From: Fibrobacter sp.
GTDB lineage: Bacteria; Fibrobacterota; Fibrobacteria; Fibrobacterales; Fibrobacteraceae
Assembly: GCA_017649565.1 (NCBI GenBank)
Contig: JAGCGO010000068.1
Span: 1-64,000 of the forward strand
Reading direction: 5' to 3'
Length of the DNA stretch: 64,000 bases
A program made the translations under genes and the position numbers. The notes under the pieces are model-generated. The model saw only the letters and a program-made list of their open reading frames with translations, was not told the origin of the DNA and ran no database searches. Positions within the stretch are counted from its first letter, which is position 1. Each line of letters begins with the position of its first letter. Shown in pieces: positions 5,207-52,193 of this stretch.

Positions 5207-5233
5207 ATTCTGTTTTGTATATGGGGATATTCG

Positions 5234-5590
5234 TGGAGGTGAGGGGAGTCGAACCCCTGTCCAAAATCACGTCCATGCACGTTCCTACAAGCGTTCCCTT
5301 CGAATTTAAGATCTCGTCTCGTCCACGCCCAAGAAGGTCGGCGCGGATTTCGACCAGCCCAGTAAATCTCGGGGCAAGTCCCTAGGCATGGCCGGCCCCT
5401 ATCCCATATTGCGTCCGGACGTACACCCCGATGGGAACGGAATGAGGCCCGGCGTTGCCGTTAATTAGGCAGCGAGTGCGTAGTTTTCGTCAGCACTTAT
5501 TTTTTTTCAGACTTTTTAACGAGTGCCCCCGTCTGAGACCTCGGCTTGCAACTAACACTTCGGCGACCCTGTCGAAACCGGATCACCCCC
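5234..5590 (-). ncRNA. ssrA: Transfer-messenger RNA (tmRNA)
   Basis: Rescues stalled ribosomes by trans-translation. The 5' end GGGGGUG (5590 downward) pairs with CACCUCC (5241-5235), with one G-U wobble, to form the acceptor stem. The T arm contains GGTTCGA with the usual flanking stem. The tag frame at 5494-5465 reads ADENYALAA followed by TAA. Pseudoknot-forming GC-rich segments fill 5270-5460. The genomic bases after the discriminator A (5234) read CGA, so CCA must be added after transcription. Its promoter is TATATTTG at 5617-5610, preceded by TTG at 19 bases. Confidence 0.95.
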
Positions 5591-5617: not shown

Positions 5618-5774
5618 CAAAAAAATGGTAAAAATGCAATGCCATGCCGAAATTAGACGAAATTCGCCATTTTGACACATTGAAAAAAAATGTACGTTCA
5701 TTTAAAATAAATTATATATTTTGTCTGTAATTTCAGTTTCGCTTACGATATTGTAATTAATGGAGAGGATTGCG

Positions 5775-8700
5775 GTGGGGGATTATATAAAGATTTTATT
5801 CTTGTTTCTCGCGTTTGCTGTGGGGGCGAACGCAAGCGTGACGATTGAAGGCGATTCTACTACTTATAATGTGTCCATTGGCGATACGCTTTCTGTTACA
5901 TCCCGGAAAAATCTCCAGGTCGGCGAGAACTTCGTCCGGTGGGAGATCGTCTCCGGAACGGGAACCTTCGTCGATGAATTTGCCGATTCTACGGGATTTA
6001 TTCCTTCGTCGGATCCGGTCGTTATCAGGAGGGAGACTCAAACTCTGCCTATCTACGAAATATCCGACAAGCCGACTACATTCTATTTTAACGAAAACAG
6101 CGCAAAGATTCCTCAATATGGGCTCTATGGCATCCGGATGTTTTTTGAAACCGACAATGGTGGAGACTACGCGTTGGTCTACAAAACGGGCCAGCCTGTG
6201 AATGTCGTTTACTATTATGAGGACTCGACTTTCACCAAGAATACGACCGACGATCCTGCTAATACATTCTATATGCAGCGGGATTGCCGTAACGGTAGGT
6301 GCGTAATTAAAACCCCGCCCAAAACAAAGGTCTACGTTTTCGTCTATTTGCCGCCCGGCCCTGATACCGACATGGAAGACGCGCTCACCGTCCAAATTGT
6401 CCCGGCACATACCCTGCAAGTTTCGAGAACCGGCTCTGGAACAGTGTACTTGCATTGTATGGATACACTCCTAACACCATGTAAATGGCTTTTGGATACC
6501 GACACAATACAGCTTGGCTGTTATCCGGATAGAGGTCTCGCTTTCGACCGTTGGGAGGTTGCATCCGGTCCCTGTTCCATTTTAGATTCCTCTATTCAAA
6601 CTGCCAAAGTCGTCAACATGACGGATGATTGCAAGGTCAATGCGGTATTCCGTAATGGGATTATTTACCCCATCACCGATGTCTCTACCGAATACAATTT
6701 CCATAAACATGTGTATTCGCAGCAAAACGCCTCTCTTAGTCCCGGTGTTCGGCTTTCTTTTGTTGCGCCAACTACCGGAACCTACAATATTATCGTAACA
6801 AATGGTTTTTCGCAAGATCGCTTCTTTTATCACCGGTACACGGGCTTCTTCGCTAGGGAAGAAATCTCTAAGGAGGTCGTTGACAATTATGTTGATACGG
6901 TGAGCCTTGTTGCCGGGGATACTGTCGGCGTCATTGTTTACAACGATTTAAAGACGGACAGTGTTTTCTTTATCAATTATACGATGCAACAAGCATATAG
7001 GCTTTCGCTTTCTCAGGATGGGCACGGCAAGGTGTCTCCATCGGGAGGCTATTCTACGGCCTATGCGAATACAAGGTATCCAATTACTAGTGAAGCCAAT
7101 ACGGGCTACCGTTTTTCGGATTGGCAAATTGTATCTGGTTCTGCCGTTATCGATGATAAGTATGCTCGCAATACGTTTGTTAGTATTTCTTCGAATTCCG
7201 AACTGAAAGCTACCTTCAGACCTGTTTCCATATGCACGCTTTCCACGAAAAAAAAGACTTTCAACTATGAAAAAGATTATTATGATGAATCCACCTTGTC
7301 TGCGATTCGGCTCACTTGGACTCCGCCGGATTCGGCTTATTATGTACTCCGTTTCGATCCCGTTGATGATTTGGATGCCGTTGTCTATGGTTATGGAACC
7401 GATGGAACGTTTACGAACCCTATATCGTTTGCGTCTGCGTCTCAGGCGATTGGCTTGACTGTCAAGGGAACGCCTAACGTTCCGCTTTATTGGGTTATTC
7501 AAGATTATTCTTCGGGTATCCCGAACAAATCATTTACAGCTTGGGTGGCGGCATCCCCTTATGTATTGAAGGTGAAAGCTTCCAAGGAAGGTGTTATAGA
7601 ACCGTCAAATACGATCTACACCACTCCAAATTTCGACACGCCCGTAACGGCAGTACCCCATGTCGGTTACAAGTTCAAATCTTGGGAGAAGGTCAAGGGC
7701 AAAATGACGATTTCGTCTTTGTATAATGCCAAAACCTCCGTAGTTCTGGTGGATTCCGTCTGTACGATCAAGGCGACCTACACAAAAGACAAAACGGTCG
7801 AGCCCATCTTGAGTATTTCGAATTTGGACCTCAGTAATTACCCTGAAATTTGTACATACGTATCTATTGTAGATAGCAAAACGGGGCGCCCCTTTAACGG
7901 GCTTGGGTCTGACGACATAGACTTGACACAAGACGGACAAAAAATTCGGCCCCAGGTTACGACCACCAAAGCTTTAGGTGGAGTTTCGGTCGTTATCGTT
8001 GTCGACGAAAGTCCGTCTATGGATGAAAATAATCGTATGCAAAAGGCTAAGGATGCCATCCGCTCCTTTATTTTCAATATGGGCCCTTACGACAGAACCG
8101 CCATTGTCGGGTTCCGTGGATACGAAGATTCAACGTTTGTGCACCAAAAGATGACTTCAGACAAAAAACTGCTGCTCAACGCTGTGAATACTCTGATTAC
8201 GAAGGGGTATGGCACGAATGTTCTCAATGGCGCTTATGATGGTCTCAAGGAAATCGTAAACGAAACGAATACGACTGCAGTCATCATCCTCTCCGATGGT
8301 GAAAACAATGCCGGAATAACGGATATATCTGTTGTAACCGACGAAGCCAAACGAAAGAATACATCCATTTATTCTATTGCGCTTGAAACGAGTGCGAAAT
8401 CCCCATTGAAAGAACTTGCAGAAAGTTCCGGTGGAATGTTTGTCTCCACGAATGACGCTTCCGAACTGGCCGATATCTATGCCGATATGCGAAATAATAT
8501 CCTTTCGCAGCATGTCATCTGTTACCAGACTCCCGATACGATTCCAAATGGAGACGTGCATAATGTCGTCATTGGCATGACCTTCAACAAGAGAACCACT
8601 AAGGATTCTGTTCAATGGAGCGAGAAATCGATTCCGCCGAAAGTGAACCTTACGGAGGACACTTGGGATAAAATCCGGAAGTCACAACAAGCGAATAATC

Positions 8701-10544
8701 CCATCACCATTTCGGCTTATATCACGACCTCGTTGGGCATCAAGAGCGCGAATATATTCTTGCGGAATTCCAGTACGGCGAACACGCAGTTTACCTCGTA
8801 CTCCATGCGGCATGTCAGGGACTCCCTTTGGGAATATACGGTCCCCGCAAATCAGGTTGTCGCACCGGGAATAGACTTCTACATCGTTGCGACCGATACG
8901 GCGGGGCAGTTGGGCAAGTCCCCGAGAATCACGAATCCGAACCAGGAACCTTACACCATCTTTGTTGACAACGACATTCCCGTAGTCAAGGAAGTTTCCA
9001 TAGTATGCGAGGATTCTACGAGCGCCCTCAAGACGTTTACCTTCCAGCTGAGCGACAACAATGGGATTTACGGAGCGCAGCTGTTCTACAAGGGCTTGTA
9101 TGATGTCATTTACCAAGAGTCTCCCTTTGCCTACACTTTCGCGGACGATATCTGGACGACCAGGGTCCCCATGAATATGACAGAAAATACTGGTTTCAGT
9201 TACTACCTTCGCGTAACGGATGCCCTCGGGGCGTCTGTGCGTTACTCTGAAACCGGTTCTTTTACTACAGACGCATGCGAAGTGAAGGAGGTTATCCCGG
9301 AACCGGAAGACACGAGCGTTACGGACTCTATTCCGAACGATTCGCTTCGCAATGATTCGAATACGGTGCCAACCGACACGAGTTCTCTTGCGGAGGATTC
9401 GCTTGCGCCGTCGCCACGTGATTCCATCGAATATTCGCTCATCGCCGACACCGCCGAGATGTACGACAAGGACTTGGACGGTCGTGCGGACTACGTACGG
9501 GTCCACTTCAAGGAGGTGCGCAGCGACAACATCACGAAAATCGACTCCATTTTCTGGAACTCGAACCGCGGCGAATGGCGGTACGTTCCTGCGAAGGATG
9601 TCAAACAGAGCCGGCATGACGGTAAGTGGTTCGAGGGCTACATCAACAAGCCCTACAAGTACGGCCTGACTGCGGCCGACACGGTGCACAGGCCCTTCCT
9701 GAGTTTTTCGACAGTCTATTCTGACAAGCTTGAAAACGTCGTTCTCGCCGACAGGGTGGGCGCAGTTCCCGTGATGGCGTCGAAATTCCCCGGAAAGATC
9801 GGCTTGAAGGAGTACATGGACCCGGACTCGGATGTTCCGCCGGATACACTTATCGTCAGGATGTCCGAACCCATCAAGAATGTCGGCAACGAAAAAGCCT
9901 GGGAAAACCTGTTCCGCTACTCCAAGTCCTGCAAGGATACCGCCTCGCAGCCGCTTAGGCTGAAAAAAGACCCGCAAATTCGCGACGATGGCCTGCATTG
10001 GATCCTGATTCTCGAAGACAATTCCCTCAAGACCGGCTTTTGCCTTTCTACGGATCCGTCGGCGAGCTGCATGGACCGGGTGGGCAACGCTCTTGGACGC
10101 GGCGGCGTCGAAATTGAAGGAAATGACGGGACTCTCTATCTTGCCGAAGTCAAGCCGGTGAGGCCTGTCAGCGGGGCCAGTAAGGACAAAAACGCAAAGT
10201 GGATCCCTCCGGAGGGCGACAGCTGGGAAATCCTCCCGGACACCGTGTCCGCCATCGGTGTGAAGGCCATGGCACCGTACAAGGCCGAAGTCTACATTTT
10301 TGACGGGATTGGAACGTACGTGACGCACTTCATGCAGAAGTTCGGCTACGACGGCGAGATGGAACAGTCGATTCGCGGCGGTTCCGAGAGTCCGTTCAAG
10401 CAGGGATTCCTGCACTGGAACCAGCGTTCCGACAGGGACCGCAAGGTGGGCACGGGTATCTACATTTGGAAGATTATCTTCAAGTTCAAGGACGGCCATA
10501 GGGAATCGCGGACCGTCAAGACGGGAATATATCGTAGAGACTAG
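5775..10544 (+). CDS. Large secreted InlB-repeat / von Willebrand A protein
   Basis: A 1,589-residue surface or secreted protein. An N-terminal signal segment ends near ANAS. Three divergent InlB B-repeat-like units lie at about residues 215-295, 405-485 and 615-680, each ending in a K-A-x-F/Y strand with a W-E or W-Q core. A vWA domain (about 735-925) has MIDAS motif DESPS and later TTAVIILSDGENN. Ig-like or FN3-like segments follow. An Asp/Ser/Thr-rich stretch (about 1180-1230) precedes a C-terminal region ending in a FlgD-Ig-like strand set (W-N-Q-R-S-D ... GTGIYIWKI). GTG 5775 has GAGAGG upstream at good spacing; ATG 5760 lacks a site. Codons are more AT-rich before about 8.7 kb than after it. 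It is paralogous to the gene at 1-2868. Function inferred: surface binding. Confidence 0.85.
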   Translation: MGDYIKILFLFLAFAVGANASVTIEGDSTTYNVSIGDTLSVTSRKNLQVGENFVRWEIVSGTGTFVDEFADSTGFIPSSDPVVIRRETQTLPIYEISDKPTTFYFNENSAKIPQYGLYGIRMFFETDNGGDYALVYKTGQPVNVVYYYEDSTFTKNTTDDPANTFYMQRDCRNGRCVIKTPPKTKVYVFVYLPPGPDTDMEDALTVQIVPAHTLQVSRTGSGTVYLHCMDTLLTPCKWLLDTDTIQLGCYPDRGLAFDRWEVASGPCSILDSSIQTAKVVNMTDDCKVNAVFRNGIIYPITDVSTEYNFHKHVYSQQNASLSPGVRLSFVAPTTGTYNIIVTNGFSQDRFFYHRYTGFFAREEISKEVVDNYVDTVSLVAGDTVGVIVYNDLKTDSVFFINYTMQQAYRLSLSQDGHGKVSPSGGYSTAYANTRYPITSEANTGYRFSDWQIVSGSAVIDDKYARNTFVSISSNSELKATFRPVSICTLSTKKKTFNYEKDYYDESTLSAIRLTWTPPDSAYYVLRFDPVDDLDAVVYGYGTDGTFTNPISFASASQAIGLTVKGTPNVPLYWVIQDYSSGIPNKSFTAWVAASPYVLKVKASKEGVIEPSNTIYTTPNFDTPVTAVPHVGYKFKSWEKVKGKMTISSLYNAKTSVVLVDSVCTIKATYTKDKTVEPILSISNLDLSNYPEICTYVSIVDSKTGRPFNGLGSDDIDLTQDGQKIRPQVTTTKALGGVSVVIVVDESPSMDENNRMQKAKDAIRSFIFNMGPYDRTAIVGFRGYEDSTFVHQKMTSDKKLLLNAVNTLITKGYGTNVLNGAYDGLKEIVNETNTTAVIILSDGENNAGITDISVVTDEAKRKNTSIYSIALETSAKSPLKELAESSGGMFVSTNDASELADIYADMRNNILSQHVICYQTPDTIPNGDVHNVVIGMTFNKRTTKDSVQWSEKSIPPKVNLTEDTWDKIRKSQQANNPITISAYITTSLGIKSANIFLRNSSTANTQFTSYSMRHVRDSLWEYTVPANQVVAPGIDFYIVATDTAGQLGKSPRITNPNQEPYTIFVDNDIPVVKEVSIVCEDSTSALKTFTFQLSDNNGIYGAQLFYKGLYDVIYQESPFAYTFADDIWTTRVPMNMTENTGFSYYLRVTDALGASVRYSETGSFTTDACEVKEVIPEPEDTSVTDSIPNDSLRNDSNTVPTDTSSLAEDSLAPSPRDSIEYSLIADTAEMYDKDLDGRADYVRVHFKEVRSDNITKIDSIFWNSNRGEWRYVPAKDVKQSRHDGKWFEGYINKPYKYGLTAADTVHRPFLSFSTVYSDKLENVVLADRVGAVPVMASKFPGKIGLKEYMDPDSDVPPDTLIVRMSEPIKNVGNEKAWENLFRYSKSCKDTASQPLRLKKDPQIRDDGLHWILILEDNSLKTGFCLSTDPSASCMDRVGNALGRGGVEIEGNDGTLYLAEVKPVRPVSGASKDKNAKWIPPEGDSWEILPDTVSAIGVKAMAPYKAEVYIFDGIGTYVTHFMQKFGYDGEMEQSIRGGSESPFKQGFLHWNQRSDRDRKVGTGIYIWKIIFKFKDGHRESRTVKTGIYRRD

Positions 10545-10696
10545 GGGCTAGAGGCTAGAGACTAGGATCTAGGGGCTCGGGATAAATTAAAAATGAAAAA
10601 TGGATTATCTTCATTTTTCATTCCTTCATTTTTCATTACTTGTTCCACATTTCACATTTCTCACGGCTCACCGCACATAGCTCACTGCTATTTCCC
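10541..10696. repeat. Heptanucleotide-period degenerate repeats
   Basis: Six consecutive heptads of form CTAGNNN (last one CTCGNNN) occupy 10541-10582, and the first supplies the TAG stop of the upstream gene. After an AAAAATG/TTCATTT block (10590-10640), also close to a 7-base period and able to form an 11-bp hairpin, further heptads of form CTCANNN run to about 10690. About 25 bases of the first block are repeated as the reverse complement at 23078-23104. Confidence 0.75.
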
Positions 10697-13035: not shown

Positions 13036-13557
13036 ATGCTAAAGGTTGACTACAGCAAGCTCGATTCTGCGGATATGACCCCGAAGCCGGTAAAGGATTC
13101 CGTCGTCGTTACCCGTGACATTGTCCATCCGTCGGACGTGAACGCCTATGGCGTTGTCTTTGGCGGGTACATGATGTCGCTCCTGGACAAGGCTGCCTGC
13201 ATTGCCGCATTTACCCATGCCGGGATGAAGGTGTCCACGGTGGCGATGGACGGTGTGCGCTTCTATAAGCCTGCCGTGGTGGGAACCATCCTCACGATTC
13301 GCGCGTCCGTGAACAGGGTGTTCGGCTCGTCGATGGAAATCGGCCTCAGGGTGACGGGTATCTTGCCCGGCGTGCAGGACGAGGAAGAGCTGATTTGCCG
13401 TGCCTACATGACCTTTGTCGCCATTGGCAAGGACGAGAAGCCTGTGCATGCGGCTCCTGTCGTTCCCGAAACGCCCGACGAAATCAGGCGCTACGAAGAG
13501 GCCCTGGCCCGTCGCGAGTCGAGAATCGCTCTGAAGAATTCGCTGGAATCCCGCTAG
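13036..13557 (+). CDS. Acyl-CoA thioesterase, hotdog fold (YciA/ACOT type)
   Basis: Predicted to hydrolyse acyl-CoA to free acid and CoA in the cytoplasm. The 173-residue protein carries the hotdog signature around residues 28-55: HPSDVNAYGVVFGGYMMSLLDKAA, with the Asn/Asp and Gly-Gly positions used in substrate binding. Length matches single-domain YciA relatives, with an added charged C-terminal helix (about 140-173). TATATTGG at 13022-13029 lies just before the ATG, so the leader is very short; this makes the upstream in-frame ATG at 13000 unlikely. The chain-length preference is unknown. Confidence 0.8.
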   Translation: MLKVDYSKLDSADMTPKPVKDSVVVTRDIVHPSDVNAYGVVFGGYMMSLLDKAACIAAFTHAGMKVSTVAMDGVRFYKPAVVGTILTIRASVNRVFGSSMEIGLRVTGILPGVQDEEELICRAYMTFVAIGKDEKPVHAAPVVPETPDEIRRYEEALARRESRIALKNSLESR

Positions 13558-22981: not shown

Positions 22982-22992
22982 AATTCAGGGAT

Positions 22993-23111
22993 TAGGGGCT
23001 AGGATCTAGAGGCTAGGGAAAAATAACACGGCTTCGCCGTCTGTTATTGACGCACGAAGTGCGTGATTCTTATTCCCTAGATCCTAGTCTCTAGCCTCTA
23101 TCCCCTAACAA
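22993..23111. repeat. Inverted pair of heptad repeat blocks around two hairpins
   Basis: Left block 22993-23020 holds four heptads TAGGNNN or TAGANNN. Right block 23077-23111 holds five heptads CTANNNN in the opposite sense. Together they form an imperfect palindrome, with CTAGGGAA...TTATTCCCTAG arms. Between them sit two small hairpins, ACGGCTTCGCCGT and CGCACGAAGTGCG. The right block ends at the ribD ATG. About 25 bases match 10548-10572 in reverse complement. Confidence 0.75.
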
Positions 23112-24338
23112 ATGAACTACCTACAACTCGCTCTCGAAGAATCTTTCTTCTCGATTGGAATCAGCCGCCCGAATCCGGCGGTCGGTGCCGTCGTGGTGAA
23201 AGACGGGATTATCGTGGGCAGGGGGCGTACGCAGCGCCCCGGCAGTGCCCATGCCGAAGTCATGGCGCTGCGTGACGCGGGCGAACTCGCCCGCGGCGCG
23301 GCCATATACGTGACGCTCGAACCGTGCTGCCACTATGGCCGCACGCCCCCCTGCACAAAAGCGATTATCGAGGCGGGTATTGCCGAGGTGTACTTTGCAC
23401 ATGCCGACCCGAATCCGTTGGTGCGAGGCAAGTCCCGCAAGATTCTGGAAGAGGCGGGCATCGCTGTTTACGAAGGCGAAGACGCCTGTGTACGCGCCTG
23501 TTTTAGCGACGGGCAGGAAAATGACCTCCATGCATCCTCAAATGCGTCGTGCGAATGCGGCGTGTTCGGCTATGGCCCTGCATCCGAAGAGCCCAAGGCA
23601 GAAGGCCGTTCTGTCTATATGCAAATCTCGCGCTTCTTTGAAGCGTATGATTATTTTGTCTGTAATAAACGGACTTTTGTCGAAATAAAGTCTGCCGTGT
23701 CCGAAGATTCTTTTATGGGCTGCGTATGTGCCGACGGTTGCCACGCCCCGCTGAAGATTACGGGCCAGGGCGCAAACTGCTGGAACCACGAACTGCGCGC
23801 CATGAGCGATGCCGTGCTGATCGGTGCGGGGACGCTCCTGGCGGACAATCCGAGCCTTGACGTGCGCTATGCGCAGGGGAACAATCCCGTAATCATCGTT
23901 TGGGCAGGACATCGCGAACTTGCTTTGAATGAAATTCGCTCGTTGGCTAGCAGTCCGATTGTATTCAGTTGCGTGGCCCAGCCGCAGCTGGACGGAAACG
24001 CCGAAGTTGTCGTGCTTCCGCATACAAACTTTGGGGACAACTGGCGCTTTATGCTGGCGAACCTTTCCGAACGCGGGATGCACCGCCTGATGGTGGAGCC
24101 GGGTGCTGGCCTTGCGCGAGAGCTTTTCTCCGCCGGTTTGGATCCAAAAATGCCGCTTTGGAACCGCTTGGACCTGTGGCGTTCTACGGATCCGTCCGTC
24201 GAAGAGTCTCTTGATCGCCTGATCGATTGCGGCAAAGCGAAATGTGGCCTTGAATTCCCCGGCCTTCCATCTTGTGCCATCGCCAAGGAATCCGCGATAA
24301 TCGGAAACGACGTCCTGACCGTCTATTATCCGGGATAG
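23112..24338 (+). CDS. ribD: Riboflavin biosynthesis deaminase/reductase
   Basis: Carries out deamination and then reduction of the pyrimidine intermediate in riboflavin synthesis. The N-terminal deaminase domain (1-140) has zinc motifs HAE (47-49) and [11 protein letters not shown] (71-81). The reductase domain (about 180-400) is divergent: the [22 protein letters not shown] segment is clear, but the usual K-x-A-x-S-x-D-G-K start is replaced by [15 protein letters not shown] 35-40 residue Cys/Ser/Glu-rich insert sits between domains (about 137-180). No ribosome site is visible; the heptad repeat abuts the ATG. ribE follows after 150 bases. Confidence 0.85.
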
Positions 24339-24362: not shown

Positions 24363-24471
24363 CTACGCATTTCCCACTTCTTACTGTCTACCTCCTACTT
24401 CCTACTTCCCACTTCCTACGGCCTACAGCCCACTTCCTACTATTTACTGTCTACTTTCTACTAACCACTTT
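24363..24471. repeat. CTACNNN heptad array
   Basis: From 24374 to 24471 fourteen consecutive heptads keep exact 7-base register, each of form (C/T)(T/C)ACNNN, for example CTACTTC, CCACTTC, TTACTGT. One further unit lies at 24363. The array fills the ribD-ribE gap and ends three bases before the ribE promoter box. Confidence 0.85.
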
Positions 24472-24473
24472 TC

Positions 24474-24481
24474 TATATTTG
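24474..24481 (+). promoter_or_regulatory. ribE operon -7 promoter box
   Basis: TATATTTG, seven bases before the ribE ATG. The expected -33 TTG is not evident because the upstream DNA is the CTACNNN array. No FMN riboswitch (RFN element) is recognisable upstream of either ribD or ribE. Confidence 0.55.
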
Positions 24482-24488
24482 CCCCCGT

Positions 24489-25088
24489 ATGTTTACGGGT
24501 ATAATTCAAGCAACCGGTGAAATCGTGTCCCTTGAAAGCAGGGGCGACGCATTGTCCATGCGCCTGAAATCGCCGGGATTTTTCAAGTGTTGTAAGTTGG
24601 GCGACAGCGTCGCCAACGATGGCGTGTGCCTTTCTGTGGAAAAATGTACGGAGGACGAGGCCACTTTTTGTTTAATGCACCAGACTGTCGAAAATACCTC
24701 TTTCAAGCAGGCTGCCGTGGGTAGCCTCGTGAATCTGGAACATCCCTGCCGTGCCGACAGTTTCATGGGCGGACATTTCGTGATGGGACATGTGGATTGC
24801 ACGACCGAAGTCATCAAGGTGACTCCGCGCGAGACGGGTGTGGAAGTGGACTTGAAGCTCCCTTCGGACCTGCGCCGCTATGTCATCCGCCGTGGATCCA
24901 TTTCCTTAAACGGTATCAGCCTGACGGTTGCCGAGAAATTTGAGGATTCTATCCGCGTCTGCATCATTCCCGAGACGCTTGCACGCACGAACCTGCGCAA
25001 CTGGGTTGCCGGGACCATCGTGAACGTGGAAGTCGACATGCTCGGCAAGTACATTGAGAATTATCTGAAGGAACGTGACCTTGCTTAA
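24489..25088 (+). CDS. ribE: Riboflavin synthase alpha chain
   Basis: Dismutates two lumazine molecules to riboflavin. The 199-residue protein shows the two tandem lumazine-binding halves: the first begins [12 protein letters not shown] and contains NDGVCLSV, the second contains [10 protein letters not shown] and LNGISLTV. Length and the invariant N-terminus match the family. The last 14 bp overlap ribBA if that gene starts at GTG 25075. First gene of a co-directional rib-nusB run with a very short leader. Confidence 0.95.
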
Positions 25089-32026: not shown

Positions 32027-32066
32027 CTTAACCCTAGATTCTAGCCCCTAGCCCCTAATCTCTATC
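32027..32066. repeat. CTAGNNN heptad block
   Basis: CTTAACC, CTAGATT, CTAGCCC (twice), CTAATCT and CTATCAT follow in 7-base register and fill the whole gap between two GT2 genes; the last unit contains the first bases of the next ATG. Confidence 0.75.
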
Positions 32067-45288: not shown

Positions 45289-46824
45289 ATGAGAAAAATC
45301 GGCATTGCCTTGACTGCGGCACTCGCTGTCGGCATTTCCTTTGCTGCGGAATCGGGACCGTCTCCGGTGTTCCAGATGGGTAAACTGCTGGCTCCGCTCG
45401 GCTCTGTTTCCATGAAGACCGCGGAAATCGCGGCCTATATGCCCGATTTGAAAAAGTTGTTCGTGGTGGGTGACGAACCCATCATGGAAGTGGTCTCGCT
45501 TGACAAGCCCGATCAGCCCAAGGTCCTGGGCGCGATGAAGCTCATGGGCCGCGGCTCCAGCGTGAGCGTCTTCGGTGACTTTGTCGCCGTGAGCGAAATT
45601 TCCGACCCCGAGCAGGATCCCGGTTATGTCGAAATCTTCCAGATCGTCGAGGACGTACCCAGGAAGGTCGGTTCGTACAAGGTCTGTGCCCAGCCGGACA
45701 TGCTTACCTACACTCCCAACGGCAAGAACATCCTTGTCGCGTGCGAAGGTTCTCCGAACAAGGACATGAGCGTGGACCCGGAAGGTGCCATTGCCATTCT
45801 GACCCCGGGACGCCTCAACAAGAAAGACTCCCTGCCGGTCAAGGTCAGCATTGTCAACTTCAAGAAACTCAAGGACAGCGACTTGATGGATGATGGCGTG
45901 CGCACGATTGGAACCAATCCCTATGCGCAGACACTCGAACCGGAGTACATCACGGTTTCCAAGGATTCCAAGACGGCATGGGTTAGCCTGCAGGAAAACA
46001 ACGCCATCGCGAAAATCAACATTCCCGCAAAGAAGGTCGTCGGCGTGTTCCCGCTAGGGACTGTGGACCATTCGAAGCCGGGATTCGGTGCGGACGTGCG
46101 CAAGAACGGAAGCATCGGGATCGAGAACGTGCCTGTGCACGGGTTGCGCCAGCCGGACGGCATCAGCTATTTCGAGGCGGACGGAAAGCAGTATATCATC
46201 ACGGCCAACGAGGGCGCCGAAAGTGATGACTTTAAGGCTTGGACCGACGTGACGAACGCGTTGTCGATGTTTGAACGGGGCCGCCTTGACGAAGATAAGT
46301 TTAATGGCGAGGCTCTCAGCGCGCTCAAGACTTTGAAAATCAGCAGCACCGATTTCTGTGCCGAAGGACAGAGAAAGTGCCCCTACGTTTACAGCTTCGG
46401 CACTCGCTCCATCAGCATTTTCGATGCGAACAAGGGTGAACTTGTATGGGATTCCGGCGACAAGATCGAGCAGATGCTTGCTTCTGTTGCGCCAGAATAC
46501 TTTAACTGGAATTCCAAGAAAGATAAGGTCAAGATGGATGCCCGTAGCGACAACAAGGGTTGCGAACCTGAAAATGTCGTCGTGGGTATGATCGGAAGCC
46601 ATCGTCTTGCCTTTGTCGGCCTGGAAAGGATGAGCGGCGTCGTCGTGTTCAACATTACTAACCTCGACAACCCGAAGATTATCGACTACTACATGGACCC
46701 GAAAGACCGCGGTCCCGAAGGCCTGCTGTTCATCCCCGAGGAACAGAGCCCGGTTCCTGGCAAGGCCCTGCTTGTTGTAGGCTACGAATACAGCAAGACG
46801 CTGACGATTTATACTGTTAAATAA
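45289..46824 (+). CDS. Secreted choice-of-anchor I beta-propeller protein
   Basis: A 511-residue secreted protein with signal peptide (about 1-20). The body shows propeller strands with D-x-x-x-P and conserved segments of the choice-of-anchor I family: GLRQPDGISYFEADGKQYIITANEGAESDD, RSISIFDANKGELVWDSGD, ARSDNKGCEPENVVVG and DPKDRGPEGLLFIPEE. In this family the region is sometimes fused to phosphatases; here it stands alone. AAGGAATGAGG upstream is a good ribosome site. Its last 8 bp overlap the converging HrpB gene. Confidence 0.8.
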   Translation: MRKIGIALTAALAVGISFAAESGPSPVFQMGKLLAPLGSVSMKTAEIAAYMPDLKKLFVVGDEPIMEVVSLDKPDQPKVLGAMKLMGRGSSVSVFGDFVAVSEISDPEQDPGYVEIFQIVEDVPRKVGSYKVCAQPDMLTYTPNGKNILVACEGSPNKDMSVDPEGAIAILTPGRLNKKDSLPVKVSIVNFKKLKDSDLMDDGVRTIGTNPYAQTLEPEYITVSKDSKTAWVSLQENNAIAKINIPAKKVVGVFPLGTVDHSKPGFGADVRKNGSIGIENVPVHGLRQPDGISYFEADGKQYIITANEGAESDDFKAWTDVTNALSMFERGRLDEDKFNGEALSALKTLKISSTDFCAEGQRKCPYVYSFGTRSISIFDANKGELVWDSGDKIEQMLASVAPEYFNWNSKKDKVKMDARSDNKGCEPENVVVGMIGSHRLAFVGLERMSGVVVFNITNLDNPKIIDYYMDPKDRGPEGLLFIPEEQSPVPGKALLVVGYEYSKTLTIYTVK

Positions 46825-49399
46825 CGCTCTCGGGCCAGGGGTGCTTGGGGTAGCGGCCGCGCAGCTCCTTGCGCACTTCGGCGTAGGTGTTCTGCCAGAA
46901 TCCTGTTAAGTCCCATGTCTTTTGGATTGTACGGAAGTTCGGTGCGAGAATGTCGTACCGGACTTTTAATTTGCCGTCGGCAATCCTGTGTTCGCCGCGG
47001 AGCTGCATGAAGTCCTCGATGCGGGCCGATATTTCGACGAGGACGCCTTCGATACTTTGTACGGACTTTCCGCTGTCGTCGATGGCGACGGCCTGGTAGC
47101 TGTACCGCGCGCGCTTGCCGTTCGGGAGCACGTAATGGTCGGGGAAGGTCTTGGTGAGCCAGGCGAGCATGGACTTGCCGAAGTATTCCTCGACAATGTG
47201 ACGGAATCGGTCTTCGTTGATGTCGCGCAGCAGGAAAATCCCGCTCACGAATTCGTCGAAAATCAGTTCCATGTCCTCTTCGTTGAATTCGGACAGGCCG
47301 TATTCGGGATAGAGCTTCGCGGCGAGGCGCATCTTGATGAGCTGCGTCTGCATGGATTCGGTGAGGTAGCGACCGCTCCAGTTTTCCTTCTCGATCTTTT
47401 CGCGCCAGGCGTCGACAGTGAGTTCCTTGAGCGCGGCGAGGACCTTGGGCGAGGCTTCCTGCGGGATGATTTCCTTGCGGGAAAGTTCCGTCGTGGAACC
47501 GTCGGCATTTTCTGTTTCGCTGATTTCTACGCCGATGAATCGTTCCTGGCCACTGCGCCACAGGAGTTCGTGGCGAGTCTTTGCGGTGCTCCCGCCGAGC
47601 ATGTCCTGGGTGATGGGGGCGTACAGGTTGACCTTGAGTTCCGACTTGCTTCCGCCTCCGGTGCGTAGCATCGTGAGCGCGAGAATCGCGTAGGGCGGCT
47701 CTGCGACCTGCAGGCGGATGATATTCTGGTTGGCAAGCTTGTATGCGGAACCGCTCGGCGTCGCCAGCCTGTCGGGGAAGGCCTTGAGGAGACTTTGAGC
47801 GGTGAGCTGTGAGCTATGAGCCGGTAAGGCCCCTGAGCCCTGTCGAAGGGCCGAACCACTCTCGTCTAATCCATCCCTGTAATCTCTTAACTGCCTCAGC
47901 GTGAAGCTGACTTCGCGCGGGACGTTCACGGCCTTGTCGAGGGTGTCCTTCGCGAGCGTGAGGATGTCCTGCGATACCTTGGATTTTTGCAGTGCCTCGG
48001 TGCCGGAGTGTATCCATGCGAGTGCTGCAAGCAGAAGGTCGGGGAGGTCGGCCTTGCTCTGCGCGGAGGCGAGCAATAGCGCGAGCGGGATGCTCGAAAT
48101 AGGAGTGCGGATGGCCTTGAGCCCGAGTTCCGTGATGGCGCCGTCCTTGAGCATCCCGAACCCTTCGAGCAACTTTGTGGCGGTCTGGGCGCGCACTTCC
48201 GGAATCGCCGTCGGCAGCTCAATTCTCGTATCTTGTACCTCGAGCCTGGAACATCTCTCGTCTAAGCACTCCAGCGCCGCCTTCTGCAACAGCAGTTCCG
48301 ACGGTTCAATCTGCAGCACTTCGGGGACGATTCCCTTGGGCATTCGCTTTTCGGATTCCTCGCTCCACAGGCGGATGGCGCATCCGTTCTGCGTACGGCC
48401 GCTACGGCCGCTGCGCTGGATGGCGTTCTGCATCGAGATGGGCATGGTGCGCAGCACGTTCACCTTCTCGCTGTCGTCGTAGAGGCTTACGCGTTCGATG
48501 CCGCTGTCGACGACGCCCGATACGTTCGGGACGGTGATGGAGGTTTCTGCGATATTCGTGGTGAAGATGACGCGCGGACGTTCCGTCACTTCAAAGATGC
48601 GGCCCTGCGTTTCGCGGTCCTGGCCGCCGTAGAGCTCCAGGAATTCGGCGCAGTTGTTGCCCAATGCTTCGGAGGCGGCGCTGTGGCAGCGGGCGATTTC
48701 GGCCTTGCCCGGGAGGAAAACCAGCGTGGTCTGCCAGATGTTGTTGCGGTAGAGCGTCCGGAGAGCCCGCACCACTTCGGCGTCAATGCCTACGCCCGAA
48801 ACGAGCGAATTGCCCGTGGCGGGGGCCTGGTGGATAATTTGTACGGGGTAAAGCGGGTGGCCGAGGCTTAGGCACTTGACGCCGAGAACCGCTTCGAGTT
48901 CCTCGCGGTTCAGCGCCGCCGACATCACTGCAATCCTCGGGCCTCGATCCTCGAGCCTCTCTCGTCTCTCGTCTCTCGTCTCTCGTCTAAAGAACCCAAA
49001 CAGCAAGTCCATGTCGGCCTTGCGCTCGTGGTACTCATCGAACACGACCCAGTCGGCGTCCATCTTGCCGTGCAGCAGTTCCTGCAAGAAGTTGCCGTAC
49101 GTCTGGAAGAGAATGCGCGTGCCTTCGCTCTTGCAGCTTTCCTGCCTGAACTGGTAGCCGACCGTCTTGCCGCAGGGTTCCCCGTGGAGCTTCGCCGAAA
49201 ACTGAGCCAGCGCGAGGGCGGCGATGCGGCGGGGCTGCAGCACGACAACGCGGCCCTTGCAGTGCTTGCTTAAAAAGTAGGGGATGAACAGCGACTTGCC
49301 CGAACCCGTGGGCGCCTCGATAAGCAGGTTGCGGGACTGCCCGATAGCAGCCTCCAGCTTTCCTTCTTCTTCTGCTAGAGCTAAATCACTGTATTTCAT
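46817..49399 (-). CDS. hrpB: ATP-dependent RNA helicase HrpB (DEAH-type)
   Basis: A cytoplasmic helicase of 860 residues. Motif I APTGSGKS (about 29-36), Ia LQPRRIAALAL, II DEYHER (Tyr in place of Ala in DEAH), III SAA, V TNIAETSITV and VI QRSGRSGR are all present, and the HrpB-specific C-terminus (WSGRYLTESM ... KVRYDILAPNFRTIQKTWDL ... YPKHPWPE) is complete. Three in-frame tracts derive from heptad repeats: about 137-155 (RRETRDERRERLEDRGP), 377-392 and 508-535 (GSGALPAHSSQLTAQS). The enzyme core is intact, so it is probably functional. No strong ribosome site. Confidence 0.9.
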   Translation of the reverse strand: MKYSDLALAEEEGKLEAAIGQSRNLLIEAPTGSGKSLFIPYFLSKHCKGRVVVLQPRRIAALALAQFSAKLHGEPCGKTVGYQFRQESCKSEGTRILFQTYGNFLQELLHGKMDADWVVFDEYHERKADMDLLFGFFRRETRDERRERLEDRGPRIAVMSAALNREELEAVLGVKCLSLGHPLYPVQIIHQAPATGNSLVSGVGIDAEVVRALRTLYRNNIWQTTLVFLPGKAEIARCHSAASEALGNNCAEFLELYGGQDRETQGRIFEVTERPRVIFTTNIAETSITVPNVSGVVDSGIERVSLYDDSEKVNVLRTMPISMQNAIQRSGRSGRTQNGCAIRLWSEESEKRMPKGIVPEVLQIEPSELLLQKAALECLDERCSRLEVQDTRIELPTAIPEVRAQTATKLLEGFGMLKDGAITELGLKAIRTPISSIPLALLLASAQSKADLPDLLLAALAWIHSGTEALQKSKVSQDILTLAKDTLDKAVNVPREVSFTLRQLRDYRDGLDESGSALRQGSGALPAHSSQLTAQSLLKAFPDRLATPSGSAYKLANQNIIRLQVAEPPYAILALTMLRTGGGSKSELKVNLYAPITQDMLGGSTAKTRHELLWRSGQERFIGVEISETENADGSTTELSRKEIIPQEASPKVLAALKELTVDAWREKIEKENWSGRYLTESMQTQLIKMRLAAKLYPEYGLSEFNEEDMELIFDEFVSGIFLLRDINEDRFRHIVEEYFGKSMLAWLTKTFPDHYVLPNGKRARYSYQAVAIDDSGKSVQSIEGVLVEISARIEDFMQLRGEHRIADGKLKVRYDILAPNFRTIQKTWDLTGFWQNTYAEVRKELRGRYPKHPWPESVI
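47796..47876. repeat. In-frame repeat insert in hrpB (third)
   Basis: Four TGAGCNN heptads (47796-47823) are followed by a palindromic CCTGAGCCCTGTCGAAGGG segment like widespread REP sequences, then CTCGTCT. The reading frame stays open and encodes a Ser/Gln/Gly-rich loop. Confidence 0.7.
48225..48268. repeat. In-frame repeat insert in hrpB (second)
   Basis: CTCGTAT, CTTGTAC, CTCGAGC and CTGGAAC in 7-base register, then CTCTCGT and CTAAGCA after a two-base shift. Encodes part of residues 377-392 of HrpB. Confidence 0.6.
48936..48988. repeat. In-frame repeat insert in hrpB (first)
   Basis: CTCGGGC, CTCGATC, CTCGAGC, then four bases, then CTCGTCT four times: seven heptads. Read on the minus strand it gives an Arg/Glu/Asp-rich stretch between helicase motifs II and III. 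Confidence 0.8.
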
Positions 49400-49553
49400 T
49401 TTCTAGAGTCGGGGACGTTGCGGGTGTGTCCACGCTAGACGAGAGCACGGACCTGCGGTCCTACAGACGAGGGACGAGAGAAAAAGAATGGCGCTTCGCA
49501 TAAGTACGAAAAAGTTCTTTCGTCTATTAGCGCAGCGGTCTCTCGTCTAGTTC
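49400..49553. repeat. Spacer with GACGAGN / CTCGTCT units
   Basis: Several copies of the same heptad word occur in both orientations (near 49434, 49465-49480, 49519 and 49540-49560). A GGACCTGCGGTCC hairpin lies near 49448. The last units provide the TAG stop of the 49554 gene. Confidence 0.6.
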
Positions 49554-50822: not shown

Positions 50823-52193
50823 ATGTTTTTGTTGGATATCCGAAAGACTCTTGGCCTGGTAATGCTCTCCGTCGCCGTCTCCGTGGCGGGGGAGAACGCT
50901 GCCGATTCGGGCTGCGCCGACGGGACGCTGATTGCCTCGGTGAAATTCGAGGGCTTGGAGCATACGAAGCCGCGCGTGGTGGAACGCGAATTGTTGAACA
51001 AGGTGGGCGAGCCGTACTCTTCCGAGAAGTTCGAGGCTGAAAAGCTGCGCCTGCAGGACCTCGACCTGTTCACCGAAATCACCGTTGCCTGTGCCCCTGC
51101 TGACCCCCTGCCCTCGCACCTCGCGGCTCGCGCCTCGAGCCTCACCTACACCTTCAAGGAAATCTTCCGCTGGATTCCCTCCCCGGCGGGCAAGGAGACC
51201 GACCGTGACGGGCTCATGATCGGGCTTGCGCTTGCGAATTTGAACGTGCTGGGCGAGGATATCCGTGCCGAGGTGCAGTACCGTACATCGACCGACCCGT
51301 TCCTCGACAATAACGAGTACGCCTTTTACGCCAGCTCTCCATACTTGTTTGGGCTTCCGCTCGGTTGGAACTTTGAGTTCCTGAGGACCGACAGCTATGA
51401 CGATCTCCGCGGCTACCAGGAGAACAGCATCTTGCTCGATTTGGATCTCGACTACAAGATGTTGCCGCACCTCTCCCTGCTTTGGACTATCGCCGGTCGC
51501 GATTTGCAAGATGCCGCGTTCTTGCCGGAACTGGGCTTCGGTTTTGCGTTCGATTATCGCGACAGCAAGCTCGATACGCGCAAGGGTGTGTACTTCGAAT
51601 ACATGCTTACGCACGTGGGCGAGGGCGACGACAGTGATTCCGACTGCTTGGAAGGCGACTGCAGGGGCATGGGTGGCGAAAACTTCTGGGAACTCCTGAC
51701 GGATGCCCGCGGCTACTTTACGCTCGGCAGGTTCGTGACGGGTGCGACGGCGCTGGTGCGTTTGCGTCCGGGCGATGTGGAATTCTACGACTACTATTAC
51801 CACGGGGGGCCGAATACTTTCCGTGGACGCGGCGGCACGCCTATTGGCGGGCATGAGGATGCTGCCGATTCTGTGCGCTTGGGTGTTCACGAGGCCCTGC
51901 TCACGTTCGAAGAGCGCTTCGTGCTGATGGAACGCCATGCGGCTAGCGTACTGGGCGTAAACTTCTTTTACGGGGTGCAGTTGGTGGCGGGCTTCGACGG
52001 AAGCCTCCTGTGGGACAAGGGACACCCCGGTTGGGAAGATTACGAGGGGGCCGTCTATGGCGGTGTGCATCTGGTAATCCCCGCCCTCGACCGGATCCGT
52101 TTTGAAGTCGGCTACAGGCCCGACAGGGGAGAGCCTGCATTCTATTTCGGGCTGTTTGACAAGGTGACTTCGTCTCGCTGGCGCAGCCGGTAA
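50823..52193 (+). CDS. Omp85/BamA-type outer-membrane protein with one POTRA-like domain
   Basis: A 456-residue outer-membrane protein: signal peptide (about 1-22), one POTRA-like domain (about 35-115: IASVKFEGLEHTKPRVVERELLNKVGEPYSSEKFEAEKLRLQDLDLFTEI) and a 16-strand-size barrel ending in short aromatic strands. GPNTFRGRGG near residue 340 fits the conserved (V/F)RG(F/Y) loop of Omp85 barrels. With a single POTRA it is shorter than BamA and closer to TamA-like or FhaC-type relatives; its client is unknown. A 35-base CTCGNNN heptad insert encodes about residues 97-108 of the POTRA. ATG 50823 chosen over TTG 50817. Confidence 0.75.
   Translation: MFLLDIRKTLGLVMLSVAVSVAGENAADSGCADGTLIASVKFEGLEHTKPRVVERELLNKVGEPYSSEKFEAEKLRLQDLDLFTEITVACAPADPLPSHLAARASSLTYTFKEIFRWIPSPAGKETDRDGLMIGLALANLNVLGEDIRAEVQYRTSTDPFLDNNEYAFYASSPYLFGLPLGWNFEFLRTDSYDDLRGYQENSILLDLDLDYKMLPHLSLLWTIAGRDLQDAAFLPELGFGFAFDYRDSKLDTRKGVYFEYMLTHVGEGDDSDSDCLEGDCRGMGGENFWELLTDARGYFTLGRFVTGATALVRLRPGDVEFYDYYYHGGPNTFRGRGGTPIGGHEDAADSVRLGVHEALLTFEERFVLMERHAASVLGVNFFYGVQLVAGFDGSLLWDKGHPGWEDYEGAVYGGVHLVIPALDRIRFEVGYRPDRGEPAFYFGLFDKVTSSRWRSR
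51113..51147. repeat. In-frame heptad insert in the Omp85-like gene
   Basis: CTCGCAC, CTCGCGG, CTCGCGC, CTCGAGC, CTCACCT: five heptads in exact register inside the POTRA coding region, encoding SHLAARASSLTY. Confidence 0.7.

Follow-up and report, generated by a model that had tools for sequence, protein, structure and literature searches.

Heptameric repeat arrays in Fibrobacter and a possible suite of small dispersed modules of about 31 bp

The spacer between ribD and ribE in the Fibrobacter genome studied here carries a long array of degenerate units with a period of 7 nucleotides, and this raises the question of whether such arrays grow in place by slippage or are spread as units. Heptamers are the commonest of the longer SSR classes in bacteria and, to our knowledge, the footprint of the polymerase is the sole explanation that has been offered for their abundance. 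Fibrobacter comprises dozens of species, array-rich and array-poor, with several repeat families per genome, a preference for 31 bp and copies within conserved enzymes; the existence of rich and poor species, the 31-bp size and the availability of homologues free of the module make the question of slippage or movement directly testable.

The window, by which we mean the whole stretch of 64,000 nucleotides analysed (contig JAGCGO010000068.1), contains 14 consecutive YYAC-NNN units at 24374-24471 on the plus strand, and splitting the array unit by unit confirmed that, as the initial annotation stated, there is no slip of register. In order, the units read CCACTTC, TTACTGT, CTACCTC, CTACTTC, CTACTTC, CCACTTC, CTACGGC, CTACAGC, CCACTTC, CTACTAT, TTACTGT, CTACTTT, CTACTAA and CCACTTT. 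TRF independently placed an array at 24371-24462, with periods of 7, 21 and 35. The 5' neighbour is ribD (23112-24338; Pfam RibD_C) and the 3' neighbour is ribE (24489-25088; Pfam Lum_binding), for which the C-rich strand of the array is the sense strand. Directly after the array comes a promoter-like motif, TTTTCTATATTTG (24469-24481, plus strand), whose role as a promoter is putative; a similar string, TTTCTAYMTTTG, precedes most of the ribE genes seen in the genus, and the array may be regarded as a long C-rich arm ahead of the ribE promoter region. An Rfam search of the window assigned none of the arrays to a known RNA family, its sole match being the tmRNA gene at 5231-5590 on the minus strand. 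The ribE upstream regions L085, L091, L100 and L102 (reverse strand) hold a dispersed palindromic module, ATGGCACTCCTTCGGAGTGCAT, and then, before ribE, a stretch resembling GCGGCTCGGCCATGCCAACGCAA...TTGCGTTGGCGCGGC; the arms vary in a compensatory way.

The period of 7 recurs far beyond this spacer. A lag scan of the window gave 214 positions at or above threshold at lag 7, against 0-3 at lags 4, 5, 8, 10, 11 and 13, and lag 7 and its multiples were the only strong lags that are not multiples of 3. The source genome (G000 in our sample), of which 853 kb of 3.45 Mb were fully read, held 78 lag-7 segments in that portion as compared with 3-5 at the same control lags, while over the entire 3.45 Mb the pattern CYAC(N3CYAC)x3 gave 66 matches, versus 3 for the reversed pattern. 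CTAGN3CTAGN3CTAG was found at 72 sites, versus 1 for the control. The excess is present over both shuffled sequence and other lags, so that head-to-tail 7-nucleotide units occur above chance, as they do in heptameric STRR and SSR. Across the genus, the counts range from 0 to 349 per genome, the sister species G001 and G040 having almost no lag-7 segments. Heptameric arrays thus occur genome-wide in Fibrobacter as several families with one 7-base geometry, as had been supposed from the window, and a limited search of the open-licence literature found no description of them for the genus. The initial annotation listed ten further sites in the window; those at 10541, 22993, 23077, 32027, 47796, 48936 and 51113 are real arrays, and those at 13553, 48225 and 61940, with two or three units each, are weak when taken singly. 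The reversed control (CAYC at spacing 7) gave 30-377 matches in G134, G127, G095 and G072, which implies that heptamers of other families are plentiful elsewhere in the phylum. G000 is a draft assembly with 6.1% contamination and carries two copies of rsmG, about 76% identical (C79:50263 and C13:2409), reflecting either a paralogue or a contaminating contig; some of its contigs may therefore derive from a second species. The polarity and the preferred size of five triplets described below were seen again in other genomes.

The last three bases of the unit had been described as varying freely, which is incorrect: their entropy is 2.6 of 6 bits, the triplets in use number 13, with TTC, TGC and TGT together accounting for 65 of 90, and T comes first among the three bases in 77 of 90. 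A handful of families (CYAC, CTAG/CTAA, CTCG, TCTCTCG and CTCA) accounts for most of the arrays in G000 and, genome-wide, one heptamer class is present in 20 of the 78 arrays and two others in 16 each. Vocabularies differ from genome to genome, with AATGTGG-type units in G036, AACTTAG-type units in G066 and, in other genera, ACACCCC/ACTCTCT units in G008 and ACTCCCC units in G015. Measured against units dealt randomly among arrays, identical adjacent units in G000 were as frequent as expected for CYAC (14 versus 12.5) and CTAR (5 versus 5.3), and CYAC likewise had no excess of identical neighbours in G066 and G036. Two-unit phrases, in turn, were common to separate G000 loci above chance (CYAC, 81 versus 51; CTAR, 31 versus 13). 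An excess of identical neighbours does occur in the CTCG arrays and in G008, which implies that slippage acts in some families. A conserved sequence adjoining the CYAC arrays was also considered and none was found at the 3' side. At one contig end (C32:1-185 of G000, locus L136) a 185-bp array passes through the CTAG, CTAC and TCTCTCG families in a single unbroken 7-nucleotide register.

The arrays have a preferred length. With no motif preset, runs of identical triplets at period 7 in G000 numbered 36 for four triplets, 42 for five and 9 for six, the corresponding counts being 17, 17 and 3 in G066 and 19, 19 and 4 in G036; control periods of 5, 8, 10 and 11 gave 0-2 runs of five. The module has the form (XYZ-NNNN)4-XYZ, or 31 bp, where XYZ, read on the C-rich strand, is ACT, TCT, CTC or CTA and the four bases between triplets are less constrained. 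Counted by their cores, CTAC runs of three, four and five numbered 21, 23 and 1, TCTYTCG runs of two, three, four and five numbered 24, 3, 14 and 0, and runs of at least three of the reversed control motif numbered 0-1. A peak at five triplets followed by a sharp drop departs from the copy numbers without preferred size that slippage would be expected to give in STRR and SSR. The longest arrays, among them the 14 units before ribE, exceed five triplets, and this is a counterpoint to a five-triplet module. Four exact modules lie in the window, all on the plus strand: at 23077-23107 and 48958-48988, both discussed below, at 32034-32064 (CTA-GATT-CTA-GCCC-CTA-GCCC-CTA-ATCT-CTA), between two glycosyltransferase genes, and at 51113-51143 (CTC-GCAC-CTC-GCGG-CTC-GCGC-CTC-GAGC-CTC), within a predicted Omp85-family gene (50823-52193). 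The flanks of modules are mostly unrelated to one another. Inspection by eye revealed neither a target-site duplication nor a conserved site of insertion at the modules, the transposase search covered PF01797, and clean empty sites whose two flanks are intact were not encountered, so we infer, rather than observe, that modules move as units.

Modules are also found in frame within genes, namely those for HrpB, TruB, RsmG, MnmE, a glycosyltransferase and an Omp85-family protein. Within hrpB (46817-49399, minus strand) there is a CTCA-family array at 47796-47821 (minus strand), and CTCG-family heptamers at 48935-48957 (plus strand) are joined to the exact module (TCTCTCG)4TCT at 48958-48988, which is in frame and is kept in the sister species G101. 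Among 30 TruB genes compared, a single loop holds a 31-bp heptamer module in G000, a GTCATTGCGAG...GAAGCAATC module in G083, G059, G064 and G098, variants of the latter in G063, G076 and G084, a hairpin element in G060, CTCG heptamers in G094 and G078, and no module in G038, G026, G032 and G074. The loops of HrpB vary in like manner. Relative to G026, TruB of G000 has a net gain of 18 nt; the module therefore took the place of some sequence and was not simply added. The TruB and HrpB alignments contain in-frame copies in genes for unrelated proteins together with homologues free of the copy, as would be seen with the palindromic elements of Rickettsia, and this loop variation is the strongest sign of dispersal.

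The arrays have a polarity that faces the genes. When opposite arrays share one spacer, the order in the genus sample is G-rich then C-rich in 26 cases and the reverse in 0; the sense strand is mostly G-rich close to stops (44 versus 9) and mostly C-rich close to starts (23 versus 2), these counts being not fully independent where arrays are inherited in common between species, and the start positions being approximate since genes were called with our own hexamer script. A general strand skew near genes was rejected as the source of the polarity, array-free spacers being without it, and so was a general role in Rho loading, which needs a C-rich sense strand after stops, where the sense is mostly G-rich. 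Arrays of GTAG, CTAG or TGAG that supply the stop codon may be part of the effect at stops, and this leaves the order of the pairs unexplained. An example in the window is the CTAG-family array at 10535-10581 (minus strand; G-rich on the plus strand), which overlaps the stop of the ORF at 5760-10544 and is followed in the same spacer by its C-rich partner, a CACATTT/CTCACGG array at 10643-10677 (plus strand). Within a spacer, the G-rich arm and the C-rich arm pair at -21.1 kcal/mol, as against -20.6 kcal/mol for swapped arms, and 37% of the swaps are as low; maintenance of the arms as a single hairpin was discarded because swapped arms pair equally well.

Certain arms flank a hairpin centre. 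The composite at 22991-23107 consists of a CTAG-family left arm (22991-23017, minus strand; G-rich on the plus strand), a centre of two GC hairpins (CACGGCTTCGCCGTC ... GACGCACGAAGTGCGTG; 23018-23076) that has copies elsewhere in the genome sample, and the exact module CTA-GATC-CTA-GTCT-CTA-GCCT-CTA-TCCC-CTA as the right arm (23077-23107), which ends 4 nt upstream of the ribD ATG. All five copies of the two-hairpin centre in the G000 sample have CTAG arrays, G-rich to the left and C-rich to the right, and only in this CTAG-armed composite (5 of 5) do terminal inverted repeats surround a conserved centre in the manner of a MITE. Another element, GAGAACG-hairpin-CTACAGACGA accompanied by GACGAGA heptamers, has 14 copies, of which 12 begin no more than 6 nt past a stop, and its stem is 98% paired, with 11 double-change cells indicative of compensatory changes as compared with 3.6 after shuffling. 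The window copy of this stop-proximal family, in which GACGAGA heptamers surround a short GC hairpin (GGACC-TGC-GGTCC) at 49438-49470 (plus strand), is not adjacent to a stop.

Turnover is seen between close relatives. Most genes flanking the window spacers are about 89-91% identical between G101 and G000, and array families differ between the two in the spacers at 10544, 22981, 24338 and 32025. The ribE spacers of other species contain different arrays, palindromic modules or, in G038 and G079, no array, and whole-unit differences separate G054 from G059. The initial annotation had named arrays identical at every orthologous locus as grounds for refutation, and this is not what is found. Indels of whole units, 14 bp long, were seen; at C107:54207 the difference between G000 and G101 amounts to 14 bp, and extra conservation of this array over its flanks was dismissed, the flanking genes also being 93-100% identical.

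We propose, with moderate confidence, that the arrays represent a set of tiny repeats of Fibrobacter, dispersed and non-autonomous and based on a heptameric module of about 31 bp, which spread by copying and subsequently turn over by heptamers. The modules would stand singly, be joined as longer arrays or form the inverted arms of hairpin-centred composites. Copying would carry them to sites that tolerate new DNA, at the edges of genes and in the surface loops of proteins, and whole heptamers and phrases would later be gained, lost and exchanged; their placement would be set by selection, not by targeting. Observed directly are the period, the mode at 31 bp, the common vocabulary, the polarity towards genes, the composites, the in-frame copies in coding DNA beside homologues free of them and the turnover with its indels of whole units. 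The gene-facing polarity does not follow automatically from this model. A bolder version, which we think unlikely, has micro-elements defined by geometry and not by sequence, with five identical triplets at 7-nucleotide spacing, families that share length, register and polarity, copying by an enzyme that works in 7-nucleotide steps and insertion into gaps and into the coding loops of housekeeping enzymes.

The arrays could instead be ordinary SSRs, generated by a polymerase that slips with a preferred step of 7 nucleotides, with no mobile unit and with limits set by genes and promoters; we judge this unlikely. Many bacteria have an excess of heptamer SSRs, slippage tied to the polymerase footprint has been proposed as the cause (Mrazek 2007, as reported in PMC4692102 and PMC4679880), whole-unit indels are observed, identical neighbours are in excess in the CTCG and G008 arrays and the register at C32:1-185 is continuous through different families. 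Set against these are the 26:0 order of paired arrays and a vocabulary common to dozens of loci, including the coding loops of TruB and HrpB, which is not expected of local slippage. Simple slippage was one generator suggested in the initial annotation, and it finds no support in the length peak at five triplets (31 bp), in the two families without an excess of identical neighbours or in the in-frame coding modules; a template-directed process was the other, and reverse transcriptases are absent from most of the array-rich genomes tested. Selected RNA or DNA elements, that is, terminator or 3'-stabilising hairpins after stops and unstructured C-rich leaders before starts, with selection setting the polarity, seem to us quite improbable. 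They would agree with the G-rich sense near stops and C-rich sense near starts and with the GACGAGA hairpin, given its position after stops and its compensatory stem changes; array families are, however, swapped or missing between close species, G001 and G040 are nearly array-free, paired arms are no more complementary than swapped arms and copies lying within coding loops have no transcript end to serve.

It is very doubtful that the arrays are scars of break healing, in which both 3' ends were extended with G-rich heptamers in telomere-like fashion and then joined to give a G-rich arm, a junction and a C-rich arm. Such scars predict the 26:0 order and independent arms, but leave the 31-bp mode, the conserved centres and the placement in coding loops unexplained. 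Ku was absent from all 40 genomes tested, by which Ku-dependent end joining was rejected, and RVT_1 is absent from the array-rich G026, G036, G051, G062 and G064 and present in the array-poor G001 and G044, so that reverse transcriptases do not track the arrays; a telomerase-like or retroelement origin was rejected since most array-rich genomes lack RVT_1. Hardly credible is an origin as REP/REPIN-like elements, moved by IS200-type RAYT transposases, an idea prompted by the GTAG/GTRG core adjoining hairpins: GTAG does stand upstream of the GC hairpins in the TCTCTCG element, but Y1_Tnp (PF01797) is absent from the array-rich G026, G036, G042, G051, G064 and G066 and present in poorer genomes such as G023, G053 and G055. 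RAYT/IS200 was accordingly rejected as the mover, the presence of PF01797 failing to track array counts.

Dispersed modules of the kind we favour have likenesses among known systems. The cyanobacterial heptameric STRR and the G-rich heptamer SSRs of Xanthomonas and Nostoc are likewise head-to-tail 7-nucleotide repeats, mainly intergenic and present at many loci, with genome-specific vocabularies and large variation between close relatives (PMC4692102); the Fibrobacter units differ from these in being degenerate with a constant triplet, in their preferred 31 bp, in having several families of one geometry and in their gene-facing polarity, hairpin centres and in-frame coding copies. The TAACTGA direct repeats of Beggiatoaceae, some Cyanobacteria and Bacteroidetes (PMC4679880) are also 7-nucleotide units, in 2-6 copies, often just before starts and of unexplained spread, but theirs is one exact heptamer, related heptamers being rare, whereas Fibrobacter has several degenerate families. 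REPINs and REP-RAYT systems (PMC3116915) resemble the arrays as small repeats with inverted pairs in spacers, and one Fibrobacter family has GTAG beside hairpins; the Fibrobacter arrays are, however, independent of Y1_Tnp/RAYT genes, no IS200-like RAYT accompanies them, PF01797 being absent from most array-rich genomes, and their arms are not complementary beyond the family. The Rickettsia palindromic elements (RPEs; PMC10969869) too have many families of small dispersed repeats that lie in frame in genes for unrelated proteins, but RPEs are palindromic and about 150 bp, and the Fibrobacter modules are heptameric, about 31 bp and mostly not palindromic. Since neither the size and palindromy of RPEs nor the size distribution of slippage is found, the arrays are no plain member of either RPEs or STRR/SSR; by analogy, they may work like RPEs, and they look like heptameric STRR/SSR. 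The in-frame copies provide a case, comparable to that of RPEs and in an unrelated phylum, of small repeats remodelling the surface loops of core proteins (TruB and HrpB).

Elements separate from the heptamers are also present. At the TruB loci L230-L259 and the HrpB loci L147-L176, in-frame palindromic GTCATTGCGAG...GAAGCAATC modules and loop insertions of the KPGMT/SEAGMT type occur in many Fibrobacter species and are RPE-like. At about 54130-54180 of C107 in G000 (locus L141), a 51-bp palindromic element (GATATACGAAACTAGGTGCTTTAGCACCTTAGTTGAGTTATCC...) interrupts GACGAGA heptamers and is missing from G101, a clean recent insertion.
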